Assembly: GCA_025062295.1 (NCBI GenBank) | Contig: JANXAJ010000009.1 | Location: 1 to 60,654, forward strand | DNA from: Bacteroidia bacterium | GTDB taxonomy: Bacteria > Bacteroidota > Bacteroidia > SpSt-205 | Length of the DNA stretch: 60,654 bases | Reading direction: 5' to 3' | In this document: one piece after another, positions 7,306 to 33,274 of the stretch | How positions within the stretch are numbered: the stretch's first letter is position 1 | How the letters are laid out: the number at the start of each line of letters is the position of its first letter | The notes under the pieces: generated by a model | Told to the model about the DNA's origin: nothing | Database searches by the model: none | The model's input: only the letters and a program-made list of their open reading frames with translations | Made by a program: the position numbers and the translations under genes

Positions 7306-8745
7306 ATGTCAGGCCTTCCGTCTGTAGGGCGCTCTGCCGAAGACGTTCTTCGGGACTTAGAACAGCGCAAAGCGCGCGACACCGACAGCACCGCAAGTCG
7401 ACTCTGGAGCTTAGTGTATTATCACAGTCCCCAGGTGTTAGAAGTGGCTCAGCGGGCCTATGCTCTGTATATCTCAGAGAATGCTCTCAATCCTCTCGCA
7501 TTTCCGAGCCTGCGACAAATGGAAAATGAAATCGTAGGGATCGTCAAAGCCCTTCTCCACGCCCCTCCTCAGGCTGCTGGCACAATGACCACCGGTGGAA
7601 CAGAAAGCATCTTTTTGGCCCTCAAAGCTGCTCGGGATTACGCCTTCTTCCACAAGCCCCACATTGCTCATCCAGAAGTGATAGCTCCCCTCTCTGCTCA
7701 CCCTGCTTTTGACAAAGCTGCTCACTATCTGGGGCTGAAACTCATTCACACCCCCTTAGACCCCTCTGGAAAAGCGGATGTAAGGGCAATGGAAGCCGCC
7801 ATCTCAGAATCTACAATTTTACTTGTAGGTTCTGCTCCAGCTTATCCTCATGGAGTAATAGATCCTATCTCAGAAATTGCCGATCTGGCTCAGAAGTATG
7901 GACTTCTATGTCACGTCGATGCTTGCGTTGGCGGGCTCATCTTACCCTTTTTAGAAAAAAGTGGTATTGCTTTTCCCCCTTATGATTTTCGTGTAGAGGG
8001 GGTAACCAGCATATCAGCCGACCTTCACAAGTATGGATACACGCCTAAAGGAGCTTCCGTGGTGCTCTATCGGCAAAGGGAGCTTCGGCGTCATCAATTC
8101 TTTATCTACGGCAGCTGGCCAGGGGGGATTTATGCTTCTGCTAGTTTCTCGGGCACACGCTCAGCAGGAGCGATAGCAGCTGCTTGGGCAGTCCTCCAGT
8201 TTCTAGGGGAATCAGGATACATAGAAGCAGCTAAAGCGGCATGGCAGGCAACTCAGGCGATTCGCACCGCTATCAAGGAAATACCTGAGCTATACATCGT
8301 AGGAGAACCAAATGCAACGATTTTGGCGCTTGCTGCTCACCCACCTTTAGATATTTACAGAATCGGGGATGGTCTAGCTCAACGGGGATGGTTCTTAGAT
8401 CGGCAGCAGCACCCAGCAAGTTTACATCTTACCGTGACAGCAGGACATAACCGAGTTGTCAAGCGCTTCTTAGAAGATTTACGGGCAGTTGTTAGCGAAG
8501 AGAAACACCGCTCAACTCAGAGAAAGTGGCGCCGTCAAGCAGGCAAAGCTCTTCTTCGGACAGGTTTAGCCATTCTACCTGAGCGATGGGTACGCAATAT
8601 GGCTCGTCTCATCACCCGGACGGCTCAAGCCCAAGAGCCTCCGCGACGCACCGCCGCCCTATACGGTATGATGGCAGCCCTCCCCACCCAAGGCTCCTTG
8701 GAAAAAATAGTCGAGGACTTCCTGGATAAAGCCTTAGAAAATTGA
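7306..8745 (+). CDS. PLP-dependent lyase, sphingosine-1-phosphate-lyase-like
   Basis: This 479-residue fold-type I PLP enzyme belongs to the group II decarboxylase / S1P-lyase family. The cofactor lysine is Lys242 in ADLHKYGYTPKGAS, very close to the eukaryotic and Symbiobacterium S1P-lyase signature. Other hallmarks are TTGGTESIFLALKAAR (phosphate/PLP cup), HVDACVGG (Asp paired with the pyridine nitrogen) and GSWPGGIYASASFSGTRSAG. S1P lyase cleaves phosphorylated sphingoid bases to a fatty aldehyde and phosphoethanolamine. Bacteroidota often make sphingolipids, and a fatty-acid hydroxylase gene lies 10 kb away, so the role is plausible. No long N-terminal membrane anchor is seen. A tyrosine- or glutamate-type decarboxylase activity cannot be excluded. 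Confidence 0.82.
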   Translation: MSGLPSVGRSAEDVLRDLEQRKARDTDSTASRLWSLVYYHSPQVLEVAQRAYALYISENALNPLAFPSLRQMENEIVGIVKALLHAPPQAAGTMTTGGTESIFLALKAARDYAFFHKPHIAHPEVIAPLSAHPAFDKAAHYLGLKLIHTPLDPSGKADVRAMEAAISESTILLVGSAPAYPHGVIDPISEIADLAQKYGLLCHVDACVGGLILPFLEKSGIAFPPYDFRVEGVTSISADLHKYGYTPKGASVVLYRQRELRRHQFFIYGSWPGGIYASASFSGTRSAGAIAAAWAVLQFLGESGYIEAAKAAWQATQAIRTAIKEIPELYIVGEPNATILALAAHPPLDIYRIGDGLAQRGWFLDRQQHPASLHLTVTAGHNRVVKRFLEDLRAVVSEEKHRSTQRKWRRQAGKALLRTGLAILPERWVRNMARLITRTAQAQEPPRRTAALYGMMAALPTQGSLEKIVEDFLDKALEN

Positions 8746-25044: not shown

Positions 25045-26300
25045 GAGTACTTTACCTTACCTATGACGGGCTCTTAGACCCCTTAGGCCGTTCCCAAATC
25101 CTTCCCTACTTATATGGCATTCAAGATCGTATAGGCATAGAGTATCACATCATTAGCTTTGAGAAAGCATTTCGTCGGAATGAAGAACCTGCCCTTCGAA
25201 AGGAGCTTCAGCAACGAGGCATAAAATGGTATCCTTACTCTTTTACAAGCCAACCTCCTCTACTGGCAAAAGCTTATGATAACTGGCGATTTCACTGGGC
25301 TGCTCATCAGCTTTACAGAAGGCAGCTTATTCACCTTGTTCATGCTCGCAGCTATGTAGGAGGATGGGTGGCCCATCAGCTTCATAAGAAGTATGGAGTG
25401 CCATGGATTTTTGATATGCGAGGCTTCTGGCCGGATGAGCGGCGCGAGATGGGACGCTGGCCTCCTCAAAACCCCTTTTTTGAGTGGCTTTATAGAAGGT
25501 GGAAACGATATGAGCGACTCATGCTTGAGTCTGCTGCCCATGTGATTGTTCTGACAGAAGCCGCAAAAGAGGTGCTTTTGGAATGGGGACTCAGAGATTC
25601 CAAAATCACCGTTATTCCTTGTGTGGCTGACTATGCGCACTTTGTTCCTCAACCTTCCCATACCTCCCAAGAGAAAAGAGCCGAACTGGGCATCCCTCAG
25701 GATACCTTTGTCTTAGGTTATGTAGGCTCCATCGGACCAATTTATGCCTTGGAGGAGATGTTGCGCCTTTTCAAGGTCTTGTTGGAGATGCTTCCCCAGA
25801 GCTATATGGTATTTCTGACGCCAGCTCCAGAAGCAGATATCCTGCACGCTGCCTCTCAACTCGGTCTCCCTTTAGAGCGTCTCAGGATAAGATTTTTCCC
25901 CCGAGCTCAGCTCCCTCAGTGGATGGGGATATTAGATGCCTCTGTTATGTTTCGCAAGCCTGGCTTTAGTACGAAAGGATGCTCTCCTACCCGCATACCT
26001 GAACTCTTGGCAATGAATATCCCCATTATCACGCAGAGGGAATTAGGCGATAACGAGCGATTCAAGGACCGACTAGAGGGTCTTTTTTTATGCGAGAACT
26101 TTTCTGAAACCGCCTATCGCAAAGCCATCCAAGCACTCCTTGCTGCAAAGGCACAAGGGCGATTCTGTTCCATTCGGGCTCAGAGCGAAAGCTTCCTTTC
26201 TCTGCCAGTAGGACTTAGGCACTACGAAGAGGCTTACCGGCGCCTTATGAGGACTCCGATGCTCGCTTCAAACTCACAAATTGAATTACAAACGCAATAA
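25041..26300 (+). CDS. Glycosyltransferase, GT4/GT1-like
   Basis: The 419-residue protein begins MRVLYLTYDGLLDPLGRSQ, a common start in GT4 enzymes from Bacteroidota glycan loci. The C-terminal donor domain has LGYVGSIGPIYALEEMLRLF and a late CSPTRIPELLAMNIPIITQ loop. Start choice is fixed by the ATGA overlap with glmM. It probably adds a sugar to a lipid-linked or surface glycan; specificity is unknown. Its last 56 bases overlap the convergent cytochrome c gene. Confidence 0.83.
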   Translation: MRVLYLTYDGLLDPLGRSQILPYLYGIQDRIGIEYHIISFEKAFRRNEEPALRKELQQRGIKWYPYSFTSQPPLLAKAYDNWRFHWAAHQLYRRQLIHLVHARSYVGGWVAHQLHKKYGVPWIFDMRGFWPDERREMGRWPPQNPFFEWLYRRWKRYERLMLESAAHVIVLTEAAKEVLLEWGLRDSKITVIPCVADYAHFVPQPSHTSQEKRAELGIPQDTFVLGYVGSIGPIYALEEMLRLFKVLLEMLPQSYMVFLTPAPEADILHAASQLGLPLERLRIRFFPRAQLPQWMGILDASVMFRKPGFSTKGCSPTRIPELLAMNIPIITQRELGDNERFKDRLEGLFLCENFSETAYRKAIQALLAAKAQGRFCSIRAQSESFLSLPVGLRHYEEAYRRLMRTPMLASNSQIELQTQ

Positions 26301-26766
26301 GAAGCGCTACCAGAAGGAAAGCAGCTGTAACAATCCAATATATAGTCCGAAGAAATTGAAATTCTTCTGATTTCATGGGGCGCGTCTCACCAGGGTAGAT
26401 GGTCTGCTGGGGCGATGAGGAAGCAGCCACATTGGGAGGGGGAGCAGCGACGCTATTGACGTAAGTCCATATTGCCTTAAGGTCTGCTTCACTCAAGTCA
26501 GGAAAGGGAGGCATGACCTGCTGATTGTACTCCTTATAGACAGCTACCGCTTGAGGGTCGCCCGATTGAATAAGTGCTTGGGAGTTAGAGACAAACTTGA
26601 TAAACCACTCTTCCGATCGGCGCTCACTAATGCGAGCAAGCGGCGGTCCTATTAACTTTTGCTCCAGCTTATGGCAAGCAGCACAGCGCTGATTGAAGAG
26701 AGTTTTACCCTGGTCTGAGGCTGATTGCCCCCATGCAAGTCCTATGAGGAGGAATCTGTACCACAT
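26245..26766 (-). CDS. Membrane-anchored class I cytochrome c
   Basis: An N-terminal hydrophobic signal (WYRFLLIGLAW) is followed by one heme-attachment motif CAACH (about residues 32-36). A likely axial methionine lies in VMPPFPDLSEADLKAIWTYV. The protein ends with a membrane helix (about 145-165). The order heme domain, then C-terminal anchor suggests a tethered electron donor on the periplasmic face. It is the last gene of the ba3 oxidase operon and overlaps the sco gene by 25 bases, so it is probably the direct donor to the CuA subunit. Confidence 0.88.
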   Translation of the reverse strand: MWYRFLLIGLAWGQSASDQGKTLFNQRCAACHKLEQKLIGPPLARISERRSEEWFIKFVSNSQALIQSGDPQAVAVYKEYNQQVMPPFPDLSEADLKAIWTYVNSVAAPPPNVAASSSPQQTIYPGETRPMKSEEFQFLRTIYWIVTAAFLLVALLIAFVIQFVSLKRASESS

Positions 26767-27353
26767 AATTCTAAGAGTTTTTCAGTATGTTTCAAGATTC
26801 GGTCATCTTCAGAGGAGTAAAGCCCTCTCACCCGCCCCTCACAATCTATGAGGAGAAGGGCATCTGCGTGAAGGATCTCCGTCTCACTGATAGGTGCAGC
26901 CATCAGCCCAAAAACCGAACGAGCCAACTGGATAGCCCATGATTGGGAAAGAGGACGCCAAAAGAACCAGAGGTGCCCCGGTACACCATAGCTTTTTGCA
27001 TACACTCGCAAATGCTGGGGAGTATCATGTTCAGGGTCCAAAGAGATAGAGACGGCTGCCAAGTGTGGCGTAGGTTGAAAGCTCTGAAGAACATGTCTCA
27101 TGCGGTTCTGCAGCCTCGGGCAGACAGAAGGACACCGAGTGTAAATGAAATTGAGCAGAACTACTTTGCCACTCAATGCAGAAAGGTCAGGAGGCGTAGA
27201 ATCCACATCGGTCAGAGGATAGGCTTGGAGACGGGACCAGACTGACTCTGAAGAAAGGGGGGGAGGGAGATGCTCACGCTCATACCACCACCACCCTCCT
27301 GCTACGAGAGCCGCAATCGCCATCCCCCCTACCAAGAGAAAGGTACGGTTCAT
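26742..27353 (-). CDS. SCO1/SenC/PrrC-family copper chaperone
   Basis: An N-terminal membrane helix (about 5-24) anchors a thioredoxin-like domain. Copper ligands are Cys74 and Cys78 in TRCPSVCP and a histidine in ILHADALLLID near the C-terminus, the standard Sco set. Sco proteins deliver or reduce copper at the CuA site of subunit II. The ATGA overlap with the subunit I gene couples its synthesis to the oxidase. Confidence 0.92.
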   Translation of the reverse strand: MNRTFLLVGGMAIAALVAGGWWWYEREHLPPPLSSESVWSRLQAYPLTDVDSTPPDLSALSGKVVLLNFIYTRCPSVCPRLQNRMRHVLQSFQPTPHLAAVSISLDPEHDTPQHLRVYAKSYGVPGHLWFFWRPLSQSWAIQLARSVFGLMAAPISETEILHADALLLIDCEGRVRGLYSSEDDRILKHTEKLLELCGTDSSS

Positions 27354-29062
27354 TTTTTCACCTGAATCGCTGGAGTGGGATTATCAGGAGCGTAAGGTGG
27401 GGCATTCTCAGGGGTTCGCATGGCCTGGCGCAGAGGCGCCCAATAGGAGACAATAATCAAAAGTACCGCTATAGCTAACCATGGTCGCAGCTTCGCCATT
27501 ATGGATGTAGTAGGCACATCGGAATGAAGGCTCTCTGCTGTCGACAAATACAATAACCCCGCTGGTTTCTCAGCTGGAGCCGCTATCGTCGCAATCCACA
27601 CCCCTACATAAATCAGAAAAGCCAAAAACATGATGGCCCCTCCTATCGCCGCAATGTAGCTGGTTACTACCCAATCTAAGCGAAAGTGAGGCGAAGAAGG
27701 ATCTAAATAAGAAAGCCCCATGTTTGTTCGCCGAGGCTGCCCTAAAAGACCCCCGATCATCATCGCAGGAGAGAAAATGTAGAGTCCAAGAGCCCACAGA
27801 TAGGGCACAGCGATATTCCATCCTCTTCCACGCACAGGTTTCCCCGTAAGTTGAGAGAAAAGCTCTAATGACAGACCTAAAATAATCAAGAATACAGGAC
27901 CACCCACCGTCATGTGAAAGTGGCCTGAGATAAAGCCCGTATTATGAATAGTCTGATTCAGGTTATAGGAAGCATTCACTAAACCTGTCAATCCCCCCAA
28001 GATAAAGATGAGAAGACCAGCAAGACTGTAGGCTACAATTGGGCGATTTGCATCAAACCAAGGAAGCTTCCATATCCACCCAAAAAGTCCTGTGGCCCCT
28101 CGCTGTACCCCCGCATGTTCTAAGGAGGCCGCCACTGTAAAAGCTGTAATAAAACTCGGTATCGCTACCCCAAAAGTAAGCAAAGCATGAAGCCCTTTCC
28201 AGAACCGTTCAAATCCAGGCTCAGTGTACTGATGATGAAGTCCCACAGGAATACTCAAAACTAAAAATAGCAGAAATACCAGACGAGCAGCTGGAGCAGA
28301 GTAAAGTTTGCCTCCTGCTTCCTTCGGCAGCATGACATAATACACTACGTATGTGGGCAAAAGCCAAAAATAAACCAGCGGATGACCGAAGAACCAGAAA
28401 AGCGTACGAGCTAAAGGGATATTGATTGTATCTATCCATCCCAGAGACCATGGTATAAGCATAAATAGCACCTCTATAGCGAGGGGGATAGTACAGGCAA
28501 ACCAAATGATGAAAGCAGTCAGCATCCCTAAGACAGCGAGCGGAATGGGCTGACCTGGATGCTCACGCATCCATCGGCGTATCAAGGGTATCCACCCAAA
28601 GAAGGCAATCCATGAACCCACTACCAACAGGGTGGCCCCGATATAGAAGGCAGGGTGAGCCTTGAGTGGAGGGTAAAAGGTATAGAGTACGTCCGCAAGT
28701 CCTAAAAGCATAGGAACAGCTGCGATAAGCGTCCCAATTCCCATTAGTCCTGTGGAGAGAAGATGCACCGTCGGAAACAGCGGCTGGCGAAGGTAGTATT
28801 GCATGACTGCATTCCCGAAGGCCACCCCAAAGAAGGTAGTCAGAACTACCGCATTAATCACCCCATGTAGAGTCAGTCCTTGATAATACCCAAGCCCTGC
28901 AAAGCTGCTGCTTTGGATGATTCCCGCTCGGTAAAGGGTCTGCACAAAGCCATGGTATATTCCCAGCACAAGAAGAAGGATCGGTAAAGCTACCTCTACA
29001 ATCATTAGCACCCGAGAAAGGGGGGCCACCTGAAAGTTTGCCCTGACTGTGCTCATAGACAT
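27350..29062 (-). CDS. ba3-type cytochrome c oxidase subunit I
   Basis: The 570-residue protein has about 13 membrane helices and all heme-copper ligands: the low-spin heme histidine in LTLHGVINAVV, the CuB/His-Tyr site FWFFGHPLVYFWLLP, the pair in GLHHQYTEPG, and GHFHMTVGG near the end, where two histidines bind the hemes. The sequence style and missing D-channel residues match B-type (ba3) oxidases as in Thermus rather than A-type. Such enzymes work at low oxygen. It is the core gene of the IIa-II-I-sco-cytochrome c operon. There is no subunit III. Confidence 0.93.
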   Translation of the reverse strand: MSMSTVRANFQVAPLSRVLMIVEVALPILLLVLGIYHGFVQTLYRAGIIQSSSFAGLGYYQGLTLHGVINAVVLTTFFGVAFGNAVMQYYLRQPLFPTVHLLSTGLMGIGTLIAAVPMLLGLADVLYTFYPPLKAHPAFYIGATLLVVGSWIAFFGWIPLIRRWMREHPGQPIPLAVLGMLTAFIIWFACTIPLAIEVLFMLIPWSLGWIDTINIPLARTLFWFFGHPLVYFWLLPTYVVYYVMLPKEAGGKLYSAPAARLVFLLFLVLSIPVGLHHQYTEPGFERFWKGLHALLTFGVAIPSFITAFTVAASLEHAGVQRGATGLFGWIWKLPWFDANRPIVAYSLAGLLIFILGGLTGLVNASYNLNQTIHNTGFISGHFHMTVGGPVFLIILGLSLELFSQLTGKPVRGRGWNIAVPYLWALGLYIFSPAMMIGGLLGQPRRTNMGLSYLDPSSPHFRLDWVVTSYIAAIGGAIMFLAFLIYVGVWIATIAAPAEKPAGLLYLSTAESLHSDVPTTSIMAKLRPWLAIAVLLIIVSYWAPLRQAMRTPENAPPYAPDNPTPAIQVKK

Positions 29063-29069
29063 ATAAGTT

Positions 29070-29510
29070 TTATTTCGCTACAAGGTAAGCCACCATATTC
29101 TGGTGGGCAGAGCCACAATATTCATGACAGATGATGGGATAGACCCCGGGCTTTTCCAGCCTAAAGGTATAGGCATTGACAGCACCTGGGATAGCCATGA
29201 GATTGACATTGGTCCAACTGACATAGAGTCCGTGGGTTACATCTGCTGCACTCAGAAAGACATCTATTGGCTTTCCGACAGGGACCTCTACCACCTCCGG
29301 TTCAAATCGCCACATGCGAGCCACGTAGAAAACTTGACGCCTGCCATCAGGGAGAGTATCCACTCGCCCCTCACTGAAAGGTTTGACCTCTGGTGGCAAG
29401 CATGGCGGCACATTTATGCCTTGCAAACGAGCTGCCGCCAGCAGAGCCAGAAAAAATAGCCCCAATAGCCCAGACGCAAGCATGAGAGCAATCCGTTCCA
29501 TGCGGTCCAT
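29070..29510 (-). CDS. ba3-type cytochrome c oxidase subunit II (CuA)
   Basis: One N-terminal membrane helix (about 8-27) precedes a cupredoxin domain. The CuA ligands are visible: a histidine in VTHGLYVS, then Cys128 and Cys132 in CHEYCGSAHQNM with the following His and Met. The short length (146) and single helix match ba3-type subunit II. The domain faces the periplasm and receives electrons from cytochrome c. It begins 3 bases after the subunit IIa stop. Confidence 0.92.
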   Translation of the reverse strand: MDRMERIALMLASGLLGLFFLALLAAARLQGINVPPCLPPEVKPFSEGRVDTLPDGRRQVFYVARMWRFEPEVVEVPVGKPIDVFLSAADVTHGLYVSWTNVNLMAIPGAVNAYTFRLEKPGVYPIICHEYCGSAHQNMVAYLVAK

Positions 29511-29513
29511 AAG

Positions 29514-29636
29514 CTACCCCCTTTTAAGCATTAAAATGTAGCTGCCAAGCCATACCAAAATCGTCAAGAGAATAATAAGCCCAAATAGGGCTAAACTGCC
29601 GTAGGGCACAAATTCTCTTTCATCCAGGCGTTCCAT
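29514..29636 (-). CDS. Small single-helix oxidase subunit (IIa-like), 40 residues
   Basis: The ATG at 29636 opens 40 codons starting MERLDEREFVPYGS, followed by one membrane helix (about 15-36) and a short KRG tail. Thermus ba3 oxidase has a 34-residue single-helix subunit IIa at the same operon position, directly before subunit II, and many B-type oxidases have it too. A GGAGGAGGA Shine-Dalgarno lies 5 bp before the ATG, rare in this window and deciding the start. The longer frame upstream crosses the promoter and is not used. Confidence 0.75.
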   Translation of the reverse strand: MERLDEREFVPYGSLALFGLIILLTILVWLGSYILMLKRG

Positions 29637-29650
29637 ACCGTCCTCCTCCG

Positions 29651-29658
29651 CAAATATA
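29651..29658 (-). promoter_or_regulatory. -7 box (TATATTTG) of the oxidase operon
   Basis: An exact TAnnTTTG match lies 14 bp before the subunit IIa ATG. Unlike most genes here, a strong GGAGGAGGA ribosome-binding site sits between them, suggesting a short but real leader and high expression. An upstream TTTG lies about 17 bp away. Confidence 0.55.
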
Positions 29659-29793
29659 CGAAAGATTATGAATTTCAAAATGAAGTGAAGATGAAAGATG
29701 TGGTGAGCTTTCATGAGCAAAGACTGGACGCAGAGGAGCGAGAGTAAGATAGACCAGCCTCAAAAGCGATGCTAGAGCGCAAAGTAGAGGACT

Positions 29794-31038
29794 TCAGTGA
29801 GGTGCAGGAGTAGAATGAACTCTTTTATTCCACAGGAAAGTGCCTAATCGTGGTAAAAGCACCTCTAATAAAGACAGAGTCTCGGTAGTCGGCTTATTTG
29901 CTAAGAGAAGCTCTGCTATAGCCACCACCTCTCCCGTTACTTCTGAATAAAGGGGAAGGTAGAGAAGGGCATCTGCTTTAGGCGAGGCTAAAGCACTATA
30001 CGGCATCTGAGTACCTTCAGGAACAGGACAAACTGTGTAGGGCTTCTTGAGAATTGCCGCAGTCTGAAGAATGCCTCCTTCTACGACCTTATTGATTTTA
30101 TCTGGAAAGGCTTGGGTGGAGATCACTTGCCAGCCCTTCTCACCTTTTTGATAGAAGAGACTGCCTAAAATCTGGAGTTTTGAAGCCAATTCATCTAAGA
30201 CCTTCTGGGCAAAAAGAGGGAGCGACAGTTCATATCCTGTGCGCATCAGCGTCTCATATCGCATCAGGAAAGACTCTCGGTCAGCCCGCTGGCGCTCCTC
30301 CTCTCGGAGTCGTGCTAACTCTTTCAGAGCAGCCTCTAACTCTTGCTGACGCTTTTCGGCTAAATCTTTTTGCTGAAGCGCCTCTTGGGCTGACTGCCAT
30401 TGAGCCTCCAAGGCCTGCCGAAAGTCATCAGCAAATCGCACCGCATCACCCATAACCCTTTGATAGTACCTGAATACCAGATAAGAAGCTACACCGACCG
30501 CAACTGTAATCAAGACAAAGCGGGGCATACCATGGGTGATGGAGTTTGGAGGGATAAAGCTCACGAAAGGATGAAGGATAAGTCCCGCAGTCCCCAGGAT
30601 GAATGTGCCTCCAAGGCTCGCATAAACCCACCGATATTCCTTTATGCTATCAAATGCTATAAGGCTCCCCATAGCCCCCGCAAAAATCACCCATGAAAAA
30701 GCCCATCCAGAAAGAGGTTGCGTTACAGTAATCTCTACAGCAATGACTGAAATCACACTCCATAAGAGAAGAAACCTAAGCAAAGCAGAGACCGAGGATG
30801 AAAATTGAATGAGGAGAACGACAATCAAATTGAGAAGAAGATCTGGTACTCGTATCCACAAAAAGGCGGTCTGGACAGATGGAGGAGCTTCGCTGGCTGC
30901 TACAGCACTTGCTAAACTCAGAACCTTGGAAAAGAAGACAAGCCACGCCACGATTCGGGTGTTTCTGAGACGCACTGCAGCTATGTAGCCTTTTACATCT
31001 TCAGAAGGGTAGGAGGGAGAGACGGAGCGATCCTTCAT
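29794..31038 (-). CDS. Membrane protein with coiled coil and GAF-like domain
   Basis: The 414-residue product (ATG at 31038) has about six membrane helices in its first 200 residues, a charged coiled coil (about 205-265, rich in Gln/Glu/Arg/Leu), and a C-terminal alpha/beta domain of about 140 residues that resembles a GAF domain (SALASPKADALLYLPLYS, GEVVAIAELLLAN). There is no kinase, cyclase or response-regulator motif. The layout suggests a membrane sensor whose output domain is missing or supplied by a partner. It is monocistronic, with a near-match box before it and a strong terminator upstream. Confidence 0.6.
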   Translation of the reverse strand: MKDRSVSPSYPSEDVKGYIAAVRLRNTRIVAWLVFFSKVLSLASAVAASEAPPSVQTAFLWIRVPDLLLNLIVVLLIQFSSSVSALLRFLLLWSVISVIAVEITVTQPLSGWAFSWVIFAGAMGSLIAFDSIKEYRWVYASLGGTFILGTAGLILHPFVSFIPPNSITHGMPRFVLITVAVGVASYLVFRYYQRVMGDAVRFADDFRQALEAQWQSAQEALQQKDLAEKRQQELEAALKELARLREEERQRADRESFLMRYETLMRTGYELSLPLFAQKVLDELASKLQILGSLFYQKGEKGWQVISTQAFPDKINKVVEGGILQTAAILKKPYTVCPVPEGTQMPYSALASPKADALLYLPLYSEVTGEVVAIAELLLANKPTTETLSLLEVLLPRLGTFLWNKRVHSTPAPH

Positions 31039-31063: not shown

Positions 31064-31112
31064 AAAAATAAAAACAGGCGGGAGCTCAACCCGAGGGGAG
31101 CTCTACCGCCTG
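31064..31112 (-). terminator. Rho-independent terminator
   Basis: On the minus strand CAGGCGG (31112-31106) pairs with CCGCCTG (31081-31075), and inside it GAGCTC (31103-31098) pairs with GAGCTC (31087-31082), with a two-base TA bulge and a ten-base loop. The stem totals 13 bp and is followed at once by TTTTTATTTTT (31074-31064). It ends whatever is transcribed from 31113 upwards on this strand. Confidence 0.85.
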
Positions 31113-31358
31113 GGCTTGCTTCGTGTGGGCGGCTACTCTTAGAGCTAAAATGCAATAGATAGAGCCCCGATAACCTTCTCTCCTCCTGAGGTGCTCAGAT
31201 TCGCATCTGAGTAGAGTAAAAAGCCTCATAAGATGTTAGAGACCCCAGAAGCCACATGATTTCGCTCCTTCCCTCAGAGGGCTTTGTAGTCCTGTTTTAC
31301 CTTCTCCACTTACTTGAGGAATCGGTCTGCGAAGCTCTAACGAACCAAGAAAAACAGG
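31064..31358 (-). ncRNA. Candidate structured RNA or long structured 3' UTR
   Basis: Between the stop of the membrane protein gene (31391) and the terminator lie about 280 bases without an open frame but with clear hairpins on the minus strand. CCTGTTTT (31358-31351) pairs exactly with AAAACAGG (31298-31291). CTCAGAT and ATCTGAG (31211-31194) form a 7-bp stem closed by a GCGA tetraloop of the GNRA class. The terminator hairpin ends the region. The GNRA loop is on the same strand as the terminator. I see no motifs of tmRNA, RNase P RNA, SRP RNA or tRNA. The 5' end is unknown. Confidence 0.4.
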
Positions 31359-31390
31359 CCTCTCCGAATGTGGAAGTTTAGCCTTTCTCT

Positions 31391-33274
31391 CTAATCCACT
31401 ATCAGCTTTATCCGCCTTCCAGAGGGAATAAATCCATGCTTGCGAGAAAGAAACCCAAACTGCACCTCATACACCCCTGACTTTCCGGGATGAGAAATAA
31501 ACACCCCCTGTACATACTGGGGTGGAAGGTCTCTCTCCCAATTGTTGAAAGGGTGAAACTCGCTCTTTTTTCGCCCCTCTGAGTCGTATATCTCATAACT
31601 TACTCCCACAGCTACCGAATCCGTCGGTAAGCACGGAAGGCGAGAGCCGTACTGCTGAGAAATAACCACCTCAGCAATAAGGTAGCCACTGCTGTAGCCT
31701 GAATACCGCAGGAAGCGAAGAAGGGTATCTTTAGGCTGAAGCTGAATCTGTCCTTTCTCGAGGGCTTCATATACTCTTTGATCCTGCAAATGAGTAATGA
31801 TGCGATATGGGCTGGGAGGCACGCTAAAGTATTGGGGGTTGAGCTGATCAAAACGGGTCTCTAACCAGTGCCAAAAAGGCCCCAGAATAAATTCATGCCG
31901 AGTAGTTCGGGCGAGGGAGTCTAAGAAGGAAAGGTCTCCCCACATAGTGATCACGACGCTGCTATCTCTACTCAAGCTCCCAGAGTACAGAAGGGTAGCC
32001 ATGGGTAAGGCATAAGCTGTCCAGACGTAGTAGGAAACCTCTGGAGTCACACTGTTAGGATGTACAAGAGACTTGAATTCGCCTTCACGACGGCAGCTCT
32101 CTACCAGCCGACGAGTGTGCCCCAGACTCATCTTCAAGGTCCGAGAAGCAGCCCAGATGTGGTGTCCGTTTTCAATGAGAATAATCCCCATGAGCCCTGT
32201 AGCCCCGATTCTCTCATAGTTTTTCTGAAGAAATGAAACGCCAATCATGAAGCCAGAAACTACTGTGACAGGAAGAATCAAGCCATAAAACTCCATTGCA
32301 GCGGGATGTTCGCCTTTCCAGAGATAGATCACCAGATAGATTGCTACAGCAATTCCTACTCCCCCTTGAGAAAGAAGCAGAAGAGCCCCTCTCCACCTGT
32401 ACCAGATTAAGGCGTATAAAGAAAAAAGTATCACACATCCCAGAGTCAAGAGGTGATGCTGAGGATAAAATCCTAATATGTAGGCACCCATGCGGGAAGA
32501 GCGGATGCCTCCTTTGAGTAAAAGGGCAAAATGAGCTAAAAGGTCTGAAAGAGGCACAGCTTTAGACTTCTCGTACTCAGTAAGAAAGACAAAGTACTTG
32601 AGAGCTACTAATGAAGGAGCTAAGAAGAGAGGAATCAAAGCAATCAGCAATCCTCTTCTGCTTATGTGGCTCAAGTTAGCTATAGCCCCTGCCATGAGCA
32701 GGAAACCGCTGATAGGATGTCCCATAAAGAGAGCTAAGGAGGCGAGGAGAAAACCCACTCCTAAAAGCCCTATATGCCTCCGCTCTGTGTGAAGTGCTAT
32801 AAGCCACAGAGCAATCGCACTCCCCGCAGCGCTCAGAGCAAGGGTGACGGAATTGAGGCTATAGAAGACTTCCCGAGAGAGCAGATAAGGCAAAGCTGGA
32901 AGAAAAGCAAGCCAGCCTCCACCCACTTGCCGCCCCACCGCCCACACGAGGACAGAGCCTAAAAACCCAGGTAAAAGGTAACCTACAGAACAGAGTAGAA
33001 GGACGCCCTTGAATGAAGCCCCTAACTTGACGCCCAACCATGCCAAACCATGTGGCAGGATGTGGATGTACCGCCAATGGTCAATCCCTACATCTCCTAA
33101 CCCAGCTATCCTGTAGAAAAAATAAGCCCAGTCATACCAGAGGATTCGCTCTGAAGCAAAAAGAATAGACAGAATGATAAAGTACAGCCAGATGGAAAGA
33201 ATCGCATAAAAAGCCAGCCTATGCCGAAGCAAAGACCATATGCCTCGCCCTACCGAAAGCCGAGAGAACCGCAT
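31391..33274 (-). CDS. Polytopic membrane protein of unknown function
   Basis: This 627-residue protein has about ten hydrophobic spans in the first 370 residues, then a soluble C-terminal region of about 250 residues. The first periplasmic loop contains a DHWRYIHILPHG segment, which recalls the acidic/His loop of GT-C glycosyltransferases, but I cannot confirm the family. The C-terminal part has short beta-strand-like repeats ending in a region with VSYEIYDSEGRKKSEF. No neighbour suggests a role. The sequence before the ATG shows neither an exact promoter box nor a ribosome-binding site. Confidence 0.6.
   Translation of the reverse strand: MRFSRLSVGRGIWSLLRHRLAFYAILSIWLYFIILSILFASERILWYDWAYFFYRIAGLGDVGIDHWRYIHILPHGLAWLGVKLGASFKGVLLLCSVGYLLPGFLGSVLVWAVGRQVGGGWLAFLPALPYLLSREVFYSLNSVTLALSAAGSAIALWLIALHTERRHIGLLGVGFLLASLALFMGHPISGFLLMAGAIANLSHISRRGLLIALIPLFLAPSLVALKYFVFLTEYEKSKAVPLSDLLAHFALLLKGGIRSSRMGAYILGFYPQHHLLTLGCVILFSLYALIWYRWRGALLLLSQGGVGIAVAIYLVIYLWKGEHPAAMEFYGLILPVTVVSGFMIGVSFLQKNYERIGATGLMGIILIENGHHIWAASRTLKMSLGHTRRLVESCRREGEFKSLVHPNSVTPEVSYYVWTAYALPMATLLYSGSLSRDSSVVITMWGDLSFLDSLARTTRHEFILGPFWHWLETRFDQLNPQYFSVPPSPYRIITHLQDQRVYEALEKGQIQLQPKDTLLRFLRYSGYSSGYLIAEVVISQQYGSRLPCLPTDSVAVGVSYEIYDSEGRKKSEFHPFNNWERDLPPQYVQGVFISHPGKSGVYEVQFGFLSRKHGFIPSGRRIKLIVD

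Follow-up and report, generated by a model that had tools for sequence, protein, structure and literature searches.

The 60,654-nt stretch of a Bacteroidia bacterium contig analyzed here (JANXAJ010000009.1; hereafter the window) carries on its minus strand a likely non-coding RNA gene of ~77 nt. Our preferred account, held with somewhat more confidence than doubt, is that it encodes a LytTR-activated small RNA (sRNA) whose hairpin unit binds a putative partner and, where strung into arrays, titrates it. A conserved core, a -7 promoter box, an operator repeat and a terminator lie together here, so we interpret the locus as an sRNA gene with its own operator, promoter and terminator, and its transcription is predicted from these signals. 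The features are as follows.

31064..31140, minus strand: small RNA gene, ~77 nt (ends inferred from the promoter box and the T tract; model R1)
31113..31140, minus strand: 5' part and linker, AAGAGTAGCCGCCCACACGAAGCAAGCC
31075..31112, minus strand: conserved bulged hairpin and intrinsic terminator
31112-31106/31081-31075, minus strand: hairpin stem P1
31105-31104, minus strand: UA bulge of the hairpin
31103-31098/31087-31082, minus strand: hairpin stem P2, GAGCUC, 6 bp
31089-31088, minus strand: UU bulge of the hairpin (the cap has 2 bp)
31064..31074, minus strand: T tract of the terminator
31145..31152, minus strand: -7 promoter box CATTTTAG, weak, 4/6 to TAnnTTTG
31185..31194, minus strand: proximal half-site GCACCTCAGG, starting 42 bp before the -7 box
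31206..31215, minus strand: distal half-site of the 21-bp direct repeat, TCTACTCAGA (EM motif search, 21 upstream regions of the family)
31194..31211, minus strand: hairpin with GCGA loop from the sequence-only reading, CTCAGATGCGAATCTGAG, overlapping the operator and outside the conserved RNA

A sequence-only reading had described ~280 nt after a gene stop as a candidate structured RNA comprising an 8-bp pairing, a GCGA stem-loop and a 13-bp terminator with a T tract. The gene upstream, of 627 aa and on the minus strand, has its stop at 31391. All three elements were found, all on the minus strand: the 8-bp pairing, taken as 31358-31351 with 31298-31291 (CCTGTTTT/AAAACAGG), the 7-bp stem CTCAGAT GCGA ATCTGAG at 31211-31194, and a terminator at 31112-31075 composed of 7 bp (CAGGCGG/CCGCCTG) and 6 bp (GAGCTC/GAGCTC), with bulges of UA on one side and UU on the other, followed by TTTTTATTTTT. 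The reading had also noted that there is no open frame; the conserved last part holds neither ATG nor GTG and a single TTG, on which grounds we rejected a protein-coding interpretation. Rfam 15 yielded no match at gathering score in the window. An E-value search of the region returned a chance microRNA as its sole match, and equivalent searches of relatives gave none at 8 loci and, at 20 loci, 10 weak matches away from the elements; tRNA and tmRNA genes were absent from the window.

Folding gave no support to the assertion that the stretch is too structured for an ordinary tail. Its 331 nt fold at -105.8 kcal/mol, compared to -103.9 +/- 5.5 kcal/mol for 100 shuffles (z -0.34), and 31 of those 100 fold at least as well. 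Conservation of the RNA is confined to its last ~77 nt (31140-31064). The promoter box comes after the GCGA hairpin, and the 8-bp pairing lacks conservation; neither element is visible in the 12-row alignment, and the 11 relatives conserve nothing upstream of ~31150 except operator-like repeats. The stems can be drawn, but we give hardly any credence to a single structured RNA reaching from 31390 to 31064, which we rejected on fold statistics and missing conservation. For the GCGA hairpin, membership of a direct-repeat DNA operator is the better explanation. The structured-RNA reading thus stands as to the likely presence of a non-coding RNA gene, not as to its proposed extent and parts.

A DNA search of 21 genomes recovered the core in all 12 genomes of the window's family (f1; 11 from one genus and one from another), once per genome, and in none of the 9 others. 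Repeat searches with the core covered the genus again and the order (12 of 13 in the order search). Matches in relatives spanned at most positions 241-336 of the 351-nt query, corresponding to 31150-31055 of the window. The 12-row core alignment contains 52 invariant columns, which include the hairpin except for one bulge base and the loop, and the linker is invariant within the family. In 12 of 12 members the core folds modestly better than its own shuffles (z -1.15 to -4.56). An exact-pattern search of named genomes returned 13 matches, consisting of 11 metagenome-assembled genomes (ten labeled Bacteroidia bacterium and one Sphingobacterium sp.) and two Pseudomonas records (L024 and L029), which were rejected as the remainder of the core is missing from them. 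The Sphingobacterium sp. bin (JAPYWM010000116.1; L025/L013) carries an A-type RNA, as we call the window's type; its name is probably wrong, because the matching genome G011 was placed in the window's family. Genome names containing SKYB, SKYG, SKW or KatS3mg presumably denote hot-spring samples. Spread of the RNA by viruses was considered and rejected, as three exact patterns gave no match in viral contigs.

Directly before the core lies the promoter-like box. We take TAnnTTTG to be the Bacteroidota promoter consensus, to which the window's box conforms weakly; the A copies of relatives mostly have CAnCTTTG at this place, and in most A copies the box ends 2-6 nt before the aligned start. Together with a second, B-type copy described below, at least 5 of the 6 consensus positions are matched in 19 of 22 copies, compared to 5.6% of random stretches, and all 6 in 10 of 22, compared to 0.24% (one counted locus, L008, sits near a contig end). 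The genes around the core are far less constant. Upstream, a divergent mnmA-like frame is present in 9 of 11 informative family genomes and not in the window; downstream, 6 of 12 have an FKBP-like gene, the window, G009 and G011 have other genes in the same direction, and G002, G003 and G005 have convergent genes. (The names mnmA, FKBP-like, scpA-like and priA-like were assigned by eye from translations; Pfam checks in relatives concerned kinase and regulator domains only.) Surroundings differ between genomes, and therefore the RNA unit is not the leader or tail of a fixed gene.

These observations bear on two cis-acting interpretations. We judge it very improbable that the element is merely a conserved intrinsic terminator of the upstream gene with no separate RNA. 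The strong terminator at its end would suit such a role, as would the fact that four weaker model matches outside the class (L101, L102, L104 and L105) look like plain terminators. However, the upstream gene is divergent in those 9 of 11 genomes, so that nothing upstream reads into the RNA there, the promoter box and operator stand at a fixed distance, and the linker does not vary in the family; read-through from the upstream gene is likewise at odds with a promoter-like box directly before the core and with neighbors that change. Also very unlikely, in our estimation, is a cis-acting attenuator, in which CCGCC of the 5' part would pair with GGCGG of the hairpin as an antiterminator controlling the gene whose first ATG, at 31038 on the minus strand, follows ~25 nt past the RNA end. 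Withholding the 3' arm brings out such pairing in 9 of 12 A members, and a same-direction gene follows in the window and 8 relatives. Against it, no relationship links the genes found downstream in the different genomes, those of G002, G003 and G005 are convergent, and there is no Rfam riboswitch and, upstream, no conserved domain.

The frame that follows the sRNA in the window (29794-31038, minus strand) encodes 414 aa with apparent membrane segments, a coiled coil and a GAF-like end. Further downstream on the same strand (26245-29720), translations show an apparent cytochrome oxidase operon with oxidase subunits, an SCO-like protein and cytochrome c. Pfam at 0.01 assigned no family to either of the proteins neighboring the sRNA in the window.

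The sRNA gene has a paralogue. A covariance model built from the 12 core (A) sequences alone (R1), run over 395 genomes of the class, found a second, weaker B copy in 9 of 12 family genomes; that of the window's genome (G000:C3:17799-17869) has the same plan and a 6/6 promoter box. A separate single R1 match (L060, G073:C25:3374-3447) has an outer stem AGGCGG/CCGCCU without the bulge motif and is either a terminator or a distant relative. Conversely, a model trained on nine B copies and two distant matches, with no A copy included (R2), recovered the A copy of all 12 family genomes at E values of 4e-6 to 0.0097 and the B copy of 10 of them, and also matched further families. Each genome of the window's family has one A-type and one B-type match, with two paralogues in 10 of 12, and the linker differs between the A and B copies of one genome.

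A broad model (R3) matched 25 of 395 class genomes at 1e-3, distributed over f1 (10), f3 (8), f41 (3), f65 (2), f49 (1) and f71 (1). The window's own copy is a weak match to R3 (22.6 bits, E 0.0041 in 72.7 kb), and no A copy was listed at 1e-3 in whole genomes. The class motif consists of an outer stem, a 5' bulge U[UCA], an inner stem GA[U/C]UC with GA[G/A]UC (6 bp, GAGCUC with GAGCUC, in A copies), a 3' bulge that is mostly UU, a variable cap and a T tract after the hairpin, with AGCAAGG or a relative of it before. R2 searches of 296 genomes of the phylum gave weak further matches only, in 4 besides its own genome. The weak matches in G372, G024, G583 and G446 (L101, L102, L104 and L105) were rejected because they look like plain GC-rich terminators; others outside the class fell in G088, G473 and G419 (L100, L103 and L106) and in G023, G282 and G342. 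Among these, L100 (G088:C15:26923-27000) contains GGUGAUUC ... UUUGAGUCCCCGCG and may be a distant member from a further family.

The hairpin structure is supported by covariation in relatives. In five further families of the class, covariance models pick up this hairpin together with covarying pairs. Among 72 matches fitted to the model (alignment A4, with a few plain terminators among them), 98.5% of cells are paired, compared to 83.8% in shuffles. A plain MAFFT alignment of 41 members, with the structure derived from those same members, has 97.9% of 612 cells paired (82.9% shuffled) and 92 double-change cells (23.0 in shuffles), and when the partner columns are shifted by 1 to 3 positions only 25-58% of cells pair (maximum 58.2%); 8 pairs show double changes, a number reached by 109 of 500 shuffles. 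A third, anchored set comprised 63 distinct hairpins, 43 of them from f3, selected by a search pattern that already dictates the first pair of the outer stem and the greater part of P2. Here, outer-stem pairs 4-7 are formed in 248 of 252 cells and the cap has at least 3 pairs in 90%, compared to 27% in shuffles. The third inner-stem pair is U-G in 49, U-A in 7, C-G in 7 and never C-A, yet its pairing in 63 of 63 carries no information, since the mean for shuffles is already 62.2 of 63. Taken by itself, the A type of the window has no demonstrable covariation because its hairpin hardly varies. The covariation that the sequence-only reading had proposed to look for is present among class members elsewhere and does not show within the window's own type.

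In f3 all 13 genomes analyzed match, with 1 to 27 matches each, and some of the loci are tandem arrays. G328 carries 18 units of 52 nt (L167, G328:C1:3467500-3472000) and G213 carries 40 units of 56 nt (L168, G213:C1:6189500-6194500), all on one strand within each array; shorter arrays have 7 units in G095 (L132, missed by the array search pattern, counted by eye and then recounted), 3 in G365 and, where a contig of G127 ends, ~2.8. Within an array the caps vary from unit to unit, mostly so that pairing is kept. Both long arrays have a promoter-like box and a site pair with period 21 and a gap of 41 to the box. In the two long arrays every stem is followed by a run of 5 T, apart from 6 in the last unit of one, and the run is 4-5 in the 7-unit array, whose last unit has 8, while 30 of 35 f3 single copies counted have a run of at least 6; runs inside arrays are short, and read-through along an array is therefore plausible. 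No arrays were seen in the window's family. Repetition up to forty times suggests that the RNA soaks up a partner molecule. Multiple copies and tandem arrays in f3 would also befit a REP-like repetitive DNA element that is not a gene, a reading to which we attach very little weight: the window's family has one A and one B match per genome, the promoter box and T tract are on one strand, covariation in the MAFFT set includes G-U pairs, and the position before a kinase gene is conserved in two families. A distinct f3 subfamily in four genomes (L110, L134, L116 and L119) has the linker GAAGCUAGGGG and the inner stem GACUC/GAGUC, lies downstream of scpA-like genes, and is apparently without a clear direct-repeat site.

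A direct repeat with a period of 21 bp lies upstream of the promoters. When the 135-bp stretches before each copy were compared to themselves (9-bp self-match, offsets 12-40), offset 21 gave the best self-match in all five groups tested, scoring 6.91 for f1 A copies, 6.70 for f1 B copies, 8.44 for f41, 6.67 for f49/65/71 and 6.26 for f3, compared to shuffle means of 5.2-5.6, with every shuffle lower, and to 5.35 for 20 f1 control stretches. An EM search for two sites 21 bp apart gave aCcACTCAGG as the half-site motif of f1, ACCGTTCATG as that of f41 and similar motifs in the remaining groups, with each group scoring above its 6 shuffles (run with 10 starts, compared to 25-40 for the real data; L008, whose upstream DNA is too short, and the f3 copies L108:1488 and L139 were left out). 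The distance from the start of a half-site to the -7 box in f1 is mostly 42-43 or 52-53 bp, or longer by 21 bp, and phase falls at multiples of 10.5 bp in 18 of 21 cases in f1 (with a gap of 42 for the window, which a script confirmed), 9 of 9 in f41 and 8 of 9 in f49/65/71. The f3 copies were omitted from this test because their boxes are poorly called; 11 of 34 entries have gaps of 40-41 or 61-63, such that about a third of copies have a well-phased site pair.

In the window, the pair reads TCTACTCAGA-N11-GCACCTCAGG (31215-31185, gap 42), and the GCGA hairpin spans it. A profile from 17 site pairs in 16 family sequences (excluding the window, L004, L011, L065 and L069, and including a second pair from L013) ranked the window's pair first of 121,248 positions in the 60-kb window, with a score of 17.16; the second-best site (16.54, at 8227 on the plus strand) lies inside a coding frame and is probably due to chance. 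The direct repeat resembles LytTR response-regulator sites: its 10-bp half-sites, period of 21 and gap of 42 upstream of a promoter have the layout of such a site. Matching to what we take to be the LytTR consensus gave 15 strict forward half-sites in 9 f41 regions, 4 in 9 f49/65/71 regions, 6 in 34 f3 regions and none in the 21 upstream regions of the window's family, whose half-site aCcACTCAGG is without the GTT of that consensus. Canonical LytTR sites are pairs of 9-bp direct repeats 10-13 bp apart (PMC11347149).

Gene neighborhoods in relatives also point to a LytTR-type regulator. One or two RNA copies, or a short array, stand directly upstream of a LytS-type kinase gene in 7 of 8 f3 genomes (called by Pfam in five, by eye in G328 and from the N-terminus only in G365; the eighth, G382, was not seen), and a LytTR regulator comes next after the kinase in the three genomes followed that far (G213, G013 and G328). 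The order RNA-kinase-regulator is the same in f65, and the f3 and f65 kinases are 32% identical. The kinase (L173, L174, L175, L176, L177, L208 and L209, in f3 and f65) is a multi-pass membrane protein of LytS type with a DWV-containing N-terminal region. Of the 12 family genomes, 10 have exactly one LytTR gene apiece. The search found none in the other two, G001 (81% complete) and G011 (66% complete), although both have the sRNA. That of the window's genome, on G000:C26 near a contig end, encodes a receiver and a LytTR domain and is 39% identical to an f3 protein. In the window's genus the LytTR gene is not beside the sRNA, and the complete genome G006 has no kinase beside its LytTR gene in the 3.3 kb seen. 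From site, phase and these neighborhoods we infer activation by LytTR.

Parallels exist in a different phylum. Direct repeats ahead of the RNAIII promoter are bound by AgrA (PMC4227749), an sRNA is generally part of Agr-type regulons, and SpoZ of C. difficile, whose regulator RgaR is a VirR orthologue, has critical G residues at -51 and -72 (both PMC10602386). As in RNAIII (AgrA), VR-RNA (VirR) and SpoZ (RgaR), the sRNA gene here lies behind two direct repeats, bound by the regulator there and predicted to be bound here; the 21-bp spacing is equal to that of SpoZ, and the place of the repeats is roughly equal by the start site estimated here. In contrast, phylum, RNA sequence and structure are different, and the half-site of the window's family is without such a G.

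We propose that a sensor kinase would activate a LytTR-type response regulator, which would bind the two half-sites 21 bp apart and switch on the sRNA gene from the adjacent Bacteroidota promoter. Transcription would stop at the sRNA's own terminator hairpin, which may also be the conserved functional part, its plan comprising the outer stem, a bulge of two bases, a GA(n)nUC stem, an opposite-strand bulge and a variable cap, with an AGCAAG linker before. Hairpin and linker together may form a unit that binds a putative partner, most likely a protein. This reading derives from the near-invariant bulges and inner stem beside a freely covarying outer stem and cap: a terminator needs no bulges, no near-invariant inner stem and no conserved linker, so these most likely contact something. 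The strings of 3 to 40 units in f3, in two cases behind the same type of operator and promoter, would fit titration of that partner, and the window's copy would be the one-unit version of a titrating RNA.

The main rival is a base-pairing sRNA in which the linker (AAGCAAGCCC here, AGAGCAAGGG in relatives) would be a seed for mRNA start regions and the arrays would serve for dosage or as an RNA sponge. We regard this as possible though doubtful. It draws on the strong conservation of the linker within lineages and on the precedent of FopS, a multicopy family of 65-70-nt sRNAs with their own promoters in Bacteroidaceae, which act with the RRM protein RbpB and pair through a 5' seed with mRNA start regions (PMC11697453). 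However, the bulges and the inner stem vary as little as the linker although a terminator would not call for them, and the A and B linkers differ within one genome.

Described in such terms, FopS and GibS of Bacteroides thetaiotaomicron are alike to the RNA studied here in being short multicopy Bacteroidota sRNAs with their own promoters and a conserved sequence part. On paralogy and a canonical promoter, the marks of the FopS type, we found two paralogues in 10 of 12 genomes and promoters in 19 of 22 copies, at 4/6 for the window copy. They differ, as compared by description, in partner: RbpB there, whereas the RRM family (PF00076) was found in 0 of 12 genomes of the window's family. LytTR control and tandem arrays are also not mentioned for FopS in the available text (PMC11697453). 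An RbpB-like partner was consequently rejected for the window's family, having no RRM gene found there. Among the 19 genomes tested, four have RRM proteins (G013, G213, G264 and G287, of f3, f65 and f71), all of them among the 7 outside the family, and the exclusion of an RRM partner therefore extends only to genomes in which no such protein turned up.

Both sRNAs under two-component control and multivalent RNAs that titrate a partner are known. RNAs of the CsrB/RsmZ type titrate a protein through many repeated hairpins, CsrB titrating CsrA. The class is similar in its many hairpins per locus (18 and 40 units in two f3 genomes) under apparent two-component control. It differs in that the window has one unit, that class units checked by eye are without GGA in the loop, and that CsrA (PF02599) was found in 0 of 19 genomes, with positive controls in E. 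coli, B. subtilis and T. maritima. For Hfq (PF17209), none of the 19 scored above the cut-off, and G059 gave a single sub-threshold match. The partners known from such systems are thus a poor fit for the window's family. In a bolder reading, which we hold to be less likely than not, the class would be the output of a LytS/LytTR system and would control a possibly dimeric RNA-binding protein by titration, as a Bacteroidota counterpart of Gac/Rsm that arose without CsrA or Hfq and uses 1 to 40 hairpins per transcript.

The literature, among the matches listed, contained no description of this RNA class; sRNAs of Flavobacterium psychrophilum are described in PMC9723704. Among earlier motifs, a single candidate for identity with this RNA stands out, GUCCY-hairpin, a motif of Bacteroidetes and Proteobacteria without an Rfam number in the table that lists it (Weinberg 2010). 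As compared by that table row only, it too is a hairpin motif of Bacteroidetes, and its name would fit the conserved GAGUCCC strand. The RNA family appears to be new, as do its array forms and its link to LytTR regulators in Bacteroidota.

Since Bacteroidota lack the usual RNA chaperones, little is known of how they exert global control after transcription. With one LytTR regulator and two copies of the RNA, the genomes of the window's family are small and simple in this respect, and the arrays of f3 would be ready-made bait for the partner and a direct route to it. If the titration reading is true, these bacteria would have arrived at the logic of Csr/Rsm by independent invention.
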